Shown: positions 4,353 to 10,438 of the stretch, piece by piece
Layout: each line of letters opens with the position of its first letter
Numbering within the stretch: the first letter of the stretch is position 1
Virus record (IMG/VR): IMGVR_UViG_3300021368_001032
Location: 1 to 44,605 of that record
Reading direction: 5' to 3' (one strand)
Source: a virus
DNA length: 44,605 nucleotides
Notes under the pieces: generated by a model
What the model saw: only the letters and a program-made list of their open reading frames with translations
The model's database searches: none
What the model was told of the DNA's origin: nothing
Position numbers and translations under genes: made by a program

Positions 4353-5591
4353 TCAGCAGTATGCAAGAGGGGGCACACCTTCGATGAAGATGTTGTTAAC
4401 AACATTCTGCAATCGCTTGGCAATAGCATCACCCATCTTGTAACCTGTTGGCATGGTAACAACACCTTCCTGCTTTTTATAGAGGTGAAATGCACCAGCA
4501 GGAATGCGACCTTCAGCAACAGCAGCACGGTCATCTTTATGCACACGGATAACACGACCGATCGTCTGTGCCATCTCTACGATGGGCAGATTACGGAGGA
4601 GAATAGTGTGAGTCAGACCAGGCACATTGATGCCCTCACTGAGAATAGAATAGTGGAAGATCACAAACTTTTTAGTGTCATCAGCACCCCAAGATTGCAG
4701 AGTGTTGAAGAACTCTTCACGACCAACTTTCTTGTCGTTGATGACAGCACCGAACTTGGAGGTGATGTGCATCACATCATAACCTTTGCGATAGAAGTAA
4801 TCAAGAATGTCAGTTTGTCCGAGCATAGTACCCAGCACCTTGGAAGATGGTGCAGACACGAGAACTTTAGGGTTCTGGAATACATCGAGTTGCTCGAACA
4901 TATCCTTCAGGTTGTCAGCATCAACATCATGTGCATTGTGCTTAGTACGAACACGATTGGTCTCGAAAGGCACAACTTTAGGAGGAACGATTGCACCTGC
5001 TGCGATGAGTTCTTTAGCAGGAACATTGCAGAGGGTGCCACCATAAACATCGCTGTTGTTCATGCCGCGAGCAACACTCACGCCACGACCAGTTTTAGGA
5101 GTAGCAGTGAAATAGTAGCGGCGTTTGGCATACTGAGAGACAGCAAATACGCTCTTGAAGAAAGAACGACCGCAAGCATTGTGTGCTTCGTCGTAATAAA
5201 TGGTATCAATATCAATGCCACTATCTACAACGCGGTGCAGAGAATGATAGGTGGTAAAGATAATGCAGGACTCTTTTGCTGCTCGCGCAGTGTTAGCGAA
5301 CAGAGCAATCTTGTCAGGGTTAGTGCTGCTGAAGTGATGCGTTTCGCCACTGTGAACATGACAAACATGTGTCCAAGTAGCAGACACAAACTCCATAAAC
5401 TCTTCGCACAGTTGATTAGCGAGAAGAATACGAGGAGCAACAACAACTGTCGTGCTACCTTGTGCAGCACGAGAGAGACAATCAGCGATCATGATGTAAG
5501 TCTTGCCGCCACCAGTAGGCACAATAATTTGACCACAATCCTTCTGCTGCATAGCATCGAAGGCGCGTTGCTGATGAGGACGAAGTTGCAT
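4353..5591 (-). CDS. SF2 DEAH-type DNA/RNA helicase (412 aa)
   Basis: The start chosen is MQLRPHQQRAFDAMQ; an 18-residue in-frame extension would overlap the promoter. Motifs in order are a Q-motif-like start (LRPHQQRA), Walker A PTGGGKT (25-31), motif Ia VVVAPR, motif II DEAH (134-137), motif III TATP (162-165), and, near the C-terminus, motif VI QTIGRVIR (about 355). This is a complete two-lobe ATP-dependent helicase, like T4 UvsW-type or restriction-helicase-like enzymes. It probably acts in phage replication, recombination or branch migration in the cytoplasm. It is transcribed from its own strong promoter and starts 46 nt after the methyltransferase stop. A role together with the methyltransferase cannot be excluded. 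Confidence 0.9.
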   Translation of the reverse strand: MQLRPHQQRAFDAMQQKDCGQIIVPTGGGKTYIMIADCLSRAAQGSTTVVVAPRILLANQLCEEFMEFVSATWTHVCHVHSGETHHFSSTNPDKIALFANTARAAKESCIIFTTYHSLHRVVDSGIDIDTIYYDEAHNACGRSFFKSVFAVSQYAKRRYYFTATPKTGRGVSVARGMNNSDVYGGTLCNVPAKELIAAGAIVPPKVVPFETNRVRTKHNAHDVDADNLKDMFEQLDVFQNPKVLVSAPSSKVLGTMLGQTDILDYFYRKGYDVMHITSKFGAVINDKKVGREEFFNTLQSWGADDTKKFVIFHYSILSEGINVPGLTHTILLRNLPIVEMAQTIGRVIRVHKDDRAAVAEGRIPAGAFHLYKKQEGVVTMPTGYKMGDAIAKRLQNVVNNIFIEGVPPLAYC

Positions 5592-5612
5592 GTGATTTGT
5601 ATCGATGTGTAT

Positions 5613-5654
5613 AATATAAAGGAAAACAGATGCCCTGTCAAGCATCTTGTACCA
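5613..5654 (-). promoter_or_regulatory. strong sigma-70 promoter of the helicase, with TGGTACA box
   Basis: Minus strand: TGGTACA (5648-5654), 6 nt, TTGACA (5636-5641), 17 nt, TATATT (5613-5618). The -35 contains the TGA stop (5638-5640) of the methyltransferase gene. The start codon of the helicase is 21 nt past the -10. Confidence 0.65.
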
Positions 5655-6369
5655 GTTCTAGAATTGGACTATGGGTGCGTTGTTGAGTTGTCTTAATATA
5701 ATTCTCATCAATCTCATATCCTATCCAGTTTCTGTTAAGATCTTGTGCGACCTTTGCTGTTGTTCCGCTGCCCATAAATGGGTCAAGAATAGTATCACCA
5801 ACCTGAGTAGTAAGTTGGATGCAATTCTTGACAACTTGCTCAGGGAATGGTGCTGGGTGTTGTTTCTGTCGTTCAGGACTGATCACCCATACTTCACTCT
5901 TATATGCAGGATCTACAGCGTCACGATATACTCTCGGTTTCTTTTTACAGAACCAATAGATATGCTCTGTGCATGGCACAAGTACATCGTTCCTGATATT
6001 TGGTGAGTTGCGTCTATCCCAGATGATAAGTTGATAGAGTTGAGCATCACTCTGACTGATGAAGTCTGTTGGTAGATAACATCGGTTCTTGTATCTTCTA
6101 GGTTTATGATTGAAGAAGATAGAACCATCGGGTTTAATCACACGATGACATTCATTCAAGAATTCTATCATCCATGCCTGATATTGATCCTCGGGCATGT
6201 TATCACCATAAGATGAATAGTCAATCTGAAACTTACCCCAGATCTGATTGCCAGGTGTAACTTTACCTAGCAATCCTTTCTTATTATATGGTGGTGATGT
6301 GATGATGCAATCAATAGAACTCTCATCGAGTTCTTTCATGCCATCAATGCAATCTTTGTTGATGATCAT
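5638..6369 (-). CDS. beta-class DNA methyltransferase (N6-adenine or N4-cytosine, 243 aa)
   Basis: The catalytic motif TSPPYN (24-29) lies near the N-terminus. The AdoMet-binding motif LDPFMGSGTT lies near residue 205, followed by GYEIDENY. This order (catalytic motif before the cofactor motif) is that of beta-class amino-methyltransferases. It would methylate an adenine or cytosine exocyclic amine in DNA; the target sequence cannot be read. Its ATG overlaps the stop of the 208-aa gene upstream (6366-6369), so the two are translationally coupled. That could mean a restriction-modification-like pair, or simply a solitary phage methyltransferase next to an unrelated gene. Confidence 0.9.
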   Translation of the reverse strand: MIINKDCIDGMKELDESSIDCIITSPPYNKKGLLGKVTPGNQIWGKFQIDYSSYGDNMPEDQYQAWMIEFLNECHRVIKPDGSIFFNHKPRRYKNRCYLPTDFISQSDAQLYQLIIWDRRNSPNIRNDVLVPCTEHIYWFCKKKPRVYRDAVDPAYKSEVWVISPERQKQHPAPFPEQVVKNCIQLTTQVGDTILDPFMGSGTTAKVAQDLNRNWIGYEIDENYIKTTQQRTHSPILELVQDA

Positions 6370-6992
6370 ACAAACAGGTTACGGTGAATGTGCCACAGAA
6401 CATTGTAGCGATTGCTCAGTTTCTTTTTACCTTCACGCTGAAAGTGAAAGTAACTCTTACCTTCAGCATTTTTCAGGTGAATACCACCACGAAGGAACAC
6501 CCATTGAGCATCCTTGATCTTATCACAGATCTGCTGATAGGTCAATTCTAGTTCTTCATTATTTTTTGTATTTTTAATTACAACAGAGGTAATGTCATAC
6601 CCATTGCGTACAATTAAATCTATAACTTTTTCCTTGTTTGTATCAAGGAACTTTTTGAAGGCATCAACCTGCACAGAATCGATCTGTTTAATGGTGCGAC
6701 GATCCTTGCCATTGTAGTTGTAACCCTCACTGCCACAAAAATGAGAGATAAACTCAGCAGCATCACCGCTGATGTTCATCATCTTGATGAAATGTTTCTG
6801 TGTTGTGAGGTGAACCTGTGTAGAAGATCCTGACATGTTCTTGATGCTCTTATTGTTAACACCATCAGTTCCATCAATCTTGGTGCGAGAACCTCCAATC
6901 TGTGTCAGACCGTGAGCATCACAAACCTCCTTTTCTTTAATGTCAGAATACTCCTCTCTGATCTTGTATCCTTGTTCAGCAGTGAGTGGCAT
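6366..6992 (-). CDS. candidate nuclease partner of the methyltransferase (208 aa)
   Basis: I do not recognise this with certainty. The protein begins MPLTAEQGYKIREEYSDIKE. It has a segment TKIDGTDGVNNKSIKN (residues 37-52) that could be a D-(n)-SxK variant of the PD-(D/E)XK nuclease core (D40...S49-I-K51), followed by SSTQVHLTTQKHF. The C-terminal part is basic (EGKSYFHFQREGKKKLSNR). The product has a size usual for a type II restriction enzyme and is coupled to a DNA methyltransferase. The nuclease call is inference from context and this motif. The unit is bounded by a terminator upstream and a fresh promoter downstream, like a cassette. Confidence 0.55.
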   Translation of the reverse strand: MPLTAEQGYKIREEYSDIKEKEVCDAHGLTQIGGSRTKIDGTDGVNNKSIKNMSGSSTQVHLTTQKHFIKMMNISGDAAEFISHFCGSEGYNYNGKDRRTIKQIDSVQVDAFKKFLDTNKEKVIDLIVRNGYDITSVVIKNTKNNEELELTYQQICDKIKDAQWVFLRGGIHLKNAEGKSYFHFQREGKKKLSNRYNVLWHIHRNLFV

Positions 6993-7014: not shown

Positions 7015-7055
7015 ATATAAACGACAAAAGCACCCCTGTGTGGGGTGCTGTGCAG
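7015..7055 (-). promoter_or_regulatory. probable promoter of the nuclease-candidate/methyltransferase unit
   Basis: Minus strand: CTGCACA (7049-7055) and TATATT (7015-7020) are separated as in the other early promoters. No good -35 is seen because the terminator stem occupies the spacer. The gene starts 23 nt past the -10. The assignment rests mainly on the box geometry. Confidence 0.35.
7025..7050 (-). terminator. intrinsic terminator after the 53-aa gene
   Basis: A perfect stem AGCACCCC/GGGGTGCT with a short ACACA-type loop is followed on the minus strand by TTTTG. It lies 18 nt after the stop of the 53-aa gene and insulates the nuclease-candidate/methyltransferase unit from the genes upstream. 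Confidence 0.7.
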
Positions 7056-10099: not shown

Positions 10100-10438
10100 C
10101 TACTGTTCTTCATCTTTATTTATCTTCTTAACTTGTTTATTACTCCACAATGCAAATAAGATGATAGATGCATACAGCAGAGTATCATCTAACATGACAA
10201 GAAAGAATATAACTGAACCGCCATACTTGATAAAATCAGGCAGAGGAGAGATGATCTTGGCAAATACTTTACGATATGATTTCTCAAACTTAAAGTAACC
10301 AAGGGCACCAAGTGTAACTACAAACTCACTGTATGGGATAACAAAATACAGTGACAAAATAATAAACAAGGGCCAATAATGCCGCTCAGGGATCTTAGCG
10401 ATCAGGTGAACATAACGTTTTACAAAATTCTTAAACAT
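10100..10438 (-). CDS. membrane protein with two transmembrane segments (112 aa)
   Basis: A basic N-terminus (MFKNFVKRYVHLIAKIPERH) is followed by a first hydrophobic stretch (YWPLFIILSLYFVIPYSEF). After an amphipathic loop comes a second stretch (GGSVIFFLVMLDDTLLYAS, continuing ILFALW) and a charged tail NKQVKKINKDEEQ. It overlaps the 2OG oxygenase gene by 8 nt. Size and topology would suit a holin or an inner-membrane accessory protein; nothing in sequence proves that. Confidence 0.65.
   Translation of the reverse strand: MFKNFVKRYVHLIAKIPERHYWPLFIILSLYFVIPYSEFVVTLGALGYFKFEKSYRKVFAKIISPLPDFIKYGGSVIFFLVMLDDTLLYASIILFALWSNKQVKKINKDEEQ
10117..10124 (-). promoter_or_regulatory. late promoter GATAAATA of the 238-aa fibre gene
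   Basis: The minus-strand octamer GATAAATA lies 26 nt upstream of the ATG, inside the last codons of the membrane-protein gene. It fits the T4-like late consensus nnTAAATA. Confidence 0.6.

Follow-up and report, generated by a model that had tools for sequence, protein, structure and literature searches.

Why would a lytic phage carry a DNA methyltransferase gene that overlaps a gene for a possible nuclease, and if the two work together, what do they cut and how does the phage spare itself? The question is raised by a stretch of 44,605 nucleotides from IMG/VR record IMGVR_UViG_3300021368_001032 (the window, by which we mean the whole stretch), a portion of a marine Synechococcus phage of the T4-like group whose nearest annotated relatives are S-CAM22, S-RIM12, and Sf-CH1b. 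A sequence-only reading of the window had singled out two open reading frames (ORFs) sharing four nucleotides, and their coordinates proved exact:

6366 to 6992, minus strand: HinP1I-like endonuclease of 208 amino acids (aa), PHROG 25220, predicted to be ACGT-specific (AlphaFold2 model, Foldseek, hhalign, ACGT footprint).
5638 to 6369, minus strand: beta-class DNA methyltransferase of 243 aa, predicted to be of the cytosine-N4 (N4C) type with A(m4C)GT as its predicted target, m4C being N4-methylcytosine (PF01555, 8s9m/8s9n, ACGT relief).
6366 to 6369, minus strand: ATGA, in which the stop codon of the nuclease overlaps the start codon of the methyltransferase, read from the ORF coordinates and present in most close relatives.

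Our results indicate that these genes very probably form a compact ACGT-specific Type II restriction-modification pair, and that the nuclease family probably acts solo in relatives whose genomes have been purged of the site. Neither ORF is due to chance: in other phages, the two are highly conserved and under strong purifying selection, with ratios of nonsynonymous to synonymous substitution rates of 0.03 to 0.13 for the nuclease and 0.04 to 0.15 for the methyltransferase. The restriction-modification pair proposed by the sequence-only reading is supported by a predicted HinP1I/MspI fold, a conserved D...SxK core, co-occurrence of the genes, and an ACGT footprint.

Is the 208-aa protein a nuclease? 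In public phages it is labelled hypothetical or left unannotated, PHROG 25220 has no function assigned there, and single-sequence searches, including phmmer against the PDB, gave no useful match. An AlphaFold2 model with 26 relatives in the alignment (predicted local distance difference test score, 89.7) matched R.HinP1I (1ynm) over 183 residues at a root mean square deviation of 2.4 Å (Foldseek E 4e-11, Z 16.7), followed by R.MspI (Z 10.8), with the remaining structures near Z 5 or lower. When a nuclease of a divergent group (clade 2, 25 to 29% identical to that of the window) was modeled, HinP1I and MspI were again the top two (Z 17.6 and 12.0), and for both models the next-best matches had Z ≤6.7. 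Sequence profiles agree weakly with this assignment. Specifically, the A2 profile ranked HinP1I second among 177,635 PDB sequences (E 0.041), alignment of the nuclease family with the HinP1I family by hhalign gave a P value of 4e-5, and the A5 profile retrieved (E 0.001), from a bacterial genome, a HinP1I-type endonuclease adjoining a C5 methyltransferase. The phage profile, run against bacterial genomes, retrieved no relative. The structural matches predict a restriction endonuclease fold of the HinP1I/MspI type. An alternative is that the protein is a structure-specific or repair enzyme akin to a Holliday junction resolvase and lacking sequence specificity. Like Hjc resolvases (Z about 4 to 6), it has a PD-(D/E)xK core, and its gene often lies near a helicase gene. 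But HinP1I and MspI, matched along almost the whole chain, score far higher (Z 16.7 and 10.8 versus 4 to 5), and the single-word footprint described below requires sequence specificity, which makes a resolvase scarcely credible.

The candidate catalytic core lies within the motif DGTDGVNNKSIKN, which the sequence-only reading had noticed and which is present at residues 40 to 52. Three segments of the protein stand out:

6837 to 6881, minus strand: KIDG...SIKN, with candidate catalytic residues D40, S49, and K51 (Met = 1), from conservation.
6798 to 6824, minus strand: STQVHLTTQ, a near-invariant candidate DNA-contact strand whose HinP1I counterpart would be GFNQIDK, the HinP1I alignment being ambiguous here.
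6426 to 6446, minus strand: HFQREGK, matching IQRKGG near the C terminus of HinP1I, from conservation and hhalign.

The aspartate and the S-I-K-N residues are invariant among 37 relatives, down to 38% identity; across 28 sequences spanning both clades, D40 and K51 are invariant and S49 nearly so. The catalytic residues of HinP1I are D62, Q81, and K83. Because its QVK places a nonacidic residue before xK, an SxK core in the phage protein fits the group.

What would such an enzyme recognize? In clade 2 (54 loci), the nuclease occurs without an N4C methyltransferase nearby. If these phages use the nuclease without protection, its site should be absent from their own genomes. Our first count of four-base palindromes in such clade 2 contigs found no ACGT at all, for example none in 179,846 bases, where 267 were expected. 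Across 26 nuclease-positive contigs without an N4C methyltransferase (a set that excludes the contig G002), ACGT occurred 4 times against 1575 expected; in 14 related nuclease-negative cyanophage contigs serving as controls, mostly sampled as 60-kb pieces, it occurred 1752 times against 2127 expected. Among 136 classes of four-base words ACGT stands alone, with a log2 contrast of −8.2 and the next word at −0.4. No five-base word rivals it, and the strongest six-base contrasts, GGTACC (−2.5) and GTGCAC (−2.3), are far weaker. Counted by locus, ACGT was missing from 53 of 54 clade 2 loci and from 10 of 11 methyltransferase-free loci in a second divergent group, clade 1b, as against none of 78 nuclease-negative loci; the Fisher P values for this contrast are tiny, but the contigs are related, so repetition over clades weighs more. 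Clade 2 thus shows the same predicted fold and the same footprint despite its low identity to the window nuclease. Palindrome counts within the window itself were set aside as evidence of specificity, being not diagnostic.

The sequence-only reading had counted relatives that carry the nuclease without a methyltransferase as a finding that would speak against it. Such relatives are indeed many, yet they have lost essentially all ACGT. This removes the objection, and such near-total loss supports a sequence-specific nuclease.

Loss of a word could also be imposed from outside. Hosts with an ACGT-specific restriction system might have driven the loss, in which case the nuclease would mark a lineage and the methyltransferase would be a gene for protection against restriction. 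The hosts of the metagenomic contigs are not identified, and CCGG, CATG, GATC, and GCGC also vanish in some phages. We nevertheless consider this explanation improbable. The footprint tracks the nuclease over divergent clades, GC fractions of 0.33 to 0.45, and sampling sites, and host restriction gives no reason why a HinP1I-fold nuclease should track it. Nuclease-negative cyanophages retain ACGT, including L246 (84 of 120 expected), whose helicase is 92% identical to that of the window. Furthermore, 386 genomes of the cyanobacterial phylum yielded only two weak matches to the nuclease family.

Is the methyltransferase the partner of the nuclease? In our phage collection, the nuclease and a methyltransferase of the window type (at least 60% identity) co-occur in an identical set of 11 records. 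Among viral contigs of the window's clade, the two genes are adjacent in most, including cases with swapped order or opposed strands. The records of S-RIM12 (L429:7583-8932) leave the nuclease ORF unannotated, and the N4C methyltransferase gene is followed there by one for a DNA adenine methylase. In clade 1b, the nuclease is instead paired with a Dam-family gene, and a few clade 2 members (L199 to L204) carry it beside a methyltransferase about 70 to 82% identical to that of the window.

An ACGT-specific methylase partner predicts that ACGT should return where it is present. In contigs with both genes, the ratio of observed to expected ACGT was 0.09 to 0.87: 180/333 in S-CAM22, 41/80 in S-RIM12, 14/88 in Sf-CH1b, 15/166 in L036, 37/43 in L085, and 7/53 in the window, whose only sites are as follows:

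ACGT words, either strand, from the word count: starts at 10415 (10415 to 10418), 20852, 20910, 21347, 25176, 33297, and 41661.

Within clade 1b, L147, which has the methyltransferase, holds 18 of 37 expected sites versus 0 of 24 in L148, which does not; L114 and L150 likewise differ from L105 to L113. ACGT is tolerated with the methyltransferase in three separate clades. Two other candidates for a cognate enzyme were rejected. With the Dam-family methyltransferase of clade 1b (L105 to L113), ACGT stays at zero and GATC is not lost; with the 322-aa PF01555 methyltransferases of some clade 2 phages, ACGT is still 0/177.

These patterns bear on whether the methyltransferase might be an orphan, regulatory or anti-restriction in function, that adjoins the nuclease incidentally. 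Orphan methyltransferases are common in phages, many other phages have methyltransferases more distantly related to this one, and S-RIM12 has an additional adenine methylase beside it. But the methyltransferase stays with the nuclease despite altered gene orders and strands, it also sits beside the very divergent nuclease of L199 to L204, and ACGT returns where it is present. We therefore give incidental adjacency little credence.

The class of the methyltransferase is clear from its match to PF01555 (E 3e-47) together with a permuted motif order and SPPY, which confirm the beta class named in the sequence-only reading:

6286 to 6297, minus strand: SPPY catalytic motif, residue 25.
5758 to 5784, minus strand: DPFMGSGTT, S-adenosylmethionine-binding motif I, residue 196.

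Its nearest solved relatives are the DNA cytosine-N4 methyltransferases 8s9m/8s9n (E 5e-61), which we take to be the bdelloid rotifer enzyme N4CMT, and a cytosine-N4 type is accordingly the prediction from sequence. The rotifer enzyme is reported to group with phage methyltransferases whose specificity is unknown (PMC8885841). Our first guess at a target, TCGA, came from bacterial relatives of the rotifer enzyme and was dropped, as TCGA is near the control level in nearly every group.

How might the pair be used? We propose that the endonuclease would cut ACGT where it is unmethylated, A^CGT being the probable cut by comparison with G^CGC (HinP1I) and C^CGG (MspI), while the methyltransferase would shield the phage's own sites. 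If produced in the infected cell, the nuclease would cut the host chromosome and help its breakdown for nucleotides, and it might also cut the DNA of coinfecting phages while methylated phage DNA was spared. In relatives without the methyltransferase, it would act alone, with self-protection coming from the purging of ACGT. On our best reading, the nuclease of this family more often works solo, with its sites erased from the phage genome as protection. We infer that its likeliest role is cutting the host chromosome, or rival phages; host breakdown is favored because T4-like phages recycle host DNA. Alternatively, the pair could serve mainly to exclude rivals, with host degradation secondary or absent. 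The sampled contigs of nuclease-negative cyanophages have an ACGT about every 455 bases and would be cut, and cytosine-N4 methylation would mark self. But host and rival DNA should both contain ACGT, so that the data do not separate the targets, and we regard rival exclusion as the main function as possible but doubtful. More broadly, it is likely that a family of restriction enzymes is widespread among marine T4-like phages and used offensively without a cognate methyltransferase, the recognition word being completely eliminated from the genome for self-protection, and that gain or loss of a methyltransferase switches between "purged" and "methylated" protection.

Several observations weigh against an ACGT-specific pair with a solo nuclease family. 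The window and some other methyltransferase carriers remain depleted in ACGT, and L203 has 0 of 30 expected sites. The comparison set leaves out G002, and its controls are mostly 60-kb pieces. G002, the one clear exception, carries the nuclease without the methyltransferase and holds 58 of 90 expected sites, all of them past the point, at about 15 kb, where its composition breaks. Other palindromes, CCGG among them, vanish without the nuclease, so word loss alone names no cause. The window protein falls below threshold for Pfam R-HINP1I (PF11463), with two relatives at E 0.0075 as a lead only; PF11463 is not defining for the fold group, and we describe the nuclease as HinP1I-like rather than as a member of that family. 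Finally, hhalign pairs Q59-V-H61 of the nuclease, and not S49-I-K51, with Q81-V-K83 of HinP1I. The D40/S49/K51 core is a candidate resting on conservation and prediction, its exact register not proven.

At the G002 break (L380 to L382), GC content, ACGT, and CCGG all change abruptly, and the contig is probably a chimeric assembly, for which reason it was kept out of the set of 26. Four short clade 1 contigs (L012, L083, L095, and L104) keep ACGT with no methyltransferase present; they end near the nuclease gene, and a neighboring methyltransferase may have been cut off by the contig end.

The sequence-only reading had also described the pair as set apart by a terminator and by the promoter of the next gene, and both signals have counterparts here:

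7029 to 7049, minus strand: terminator-like hairpin upstream of the pair.
5613 to 5641, minus strand: sigma-70-like promoter (TTGACA-17-TATATT, 11 of 12 matches) that starts at the methyltransferase 3' end and would serve the downstream helicase gene.
4353 to 5645, minus strand: superfamily 2 helicase, PHROG 16, the downstream neighbor, with a probable start near 5591 (ORF list, PHROG match).

Promoter-like sites were about as numerous in shuffled DNA, and only the 11 of 12 match is notable. The helicase is a neighbor and probably not part of the system. We name it only as a PHROG 16 helicase and not as UvsW, since Sf-CH1b and ACG-2014j have a UvsW apart from it.

Other words are missing from cyanophages as well. 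CCGG is absent from all 14 control contigs (0 of 648 expected; e.g., L326 to L365) and from S-CAM22 (L366 to L373), and is normal in the window (44/49), the genome of L182 (128/168), and a 40-kb piece of ACG-2014j (35/34). Its absence looks like another self-purged site; comparison of gene presence gave no nuclease candidate, and no HpaII-family gene was found. Also fully absent from particular contigs are CATG (0/234; L347 to L349 and L359 to L361), GATC (0/173; L377 to L379), and GCGC (0/18 and 0/14; L353 to L358).

A HinP1I-type enzyme, a beta-class methyltransferase, and site avoidance are all of known kinds. A literature search, made without REBASE and most subscription papers, found no report of this nuclease family, of the ACGT footprint, or of a solo phage restriction enzyme with a purged site. 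Our findings describe a nuclease family that is present in many marine phages, has a recognition word readable from the phages' own genomes, and comes in natural variants with and without a methyltransferase. The use of restriction enzymes by lytic phages against hosts or rivals thereby becomes directly testable. Missing words offer a route to the specificities of other phage nucleases, and the phage group to which the rotifer 4mC enzyme is close now has a predicted target. Furthermore, erasure of ACGT in nuclease-only relatives suggests how a lytic virus can wield a restriction enzyme without cutting itself.

Among known systems, the monomeric Type II enzymes HinP1I (G^CGC) and MspI (C^CGG) resemble the phage nuclease in size, in a predicted fold that spans almost the entire chain, and in a CG-centered four-base palindrome as the inferred target; HinP1I also shares the QR(K/E)G motif and the nonacidic residue before xK. 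The phage protein differs in its identity of about 15%, shorter N terminus, SxK core, inferred ACGT target, and occurrence in lytic phages, where a methyltransferase is often missing. MaeII, HpyCH4IV, and TaiI cut ACGT, the site inferred here, and belong to bacterial or archaeal systems. Chlorella viruses are lytic and encode Type II endonucleases (e.g., CviAII) with methyltransferases and a role in host DNA breakdown; they differ in infecting eukaryotic algae, and their genes are unrelated as far as known. We know of no solo form with purged sites among them. Type II endonucleases have been described as rare on phages, and the existence of Chlorella virus restriction-modification systems is documented (PMC4081073). 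The related cyanophage ACG-2014j has an overlapping pair of an R.RsaI-annotated endonuclease and a methyltransferase, but the endonuclease sequence is different, and GTAC is reduced, not absent. That pair (L115:4511-5789) has an SPPY methyltransferase and follows a 2-oxoglutarate-Fe(II) oxygenase gene, like the pair of Sf-CH1b (L116); this slot may exchange endonuclease-methyltransferase pairs. Rotifer N4CMT shares SPPY with the phage methyltransferase but carries a chromodomain and is not paired with a nuclease. Lastly, T4 degrades host DNA with endonucleases II and IV, its own DNA being spared by glucosylated hydroxymethylcytosine. The window phage would likewise be a lytic T4-type phage cutting host DNA with its own nuclease, but we propose that its DNA is spared by N4 methylation, and that of relatives by absence of sites.
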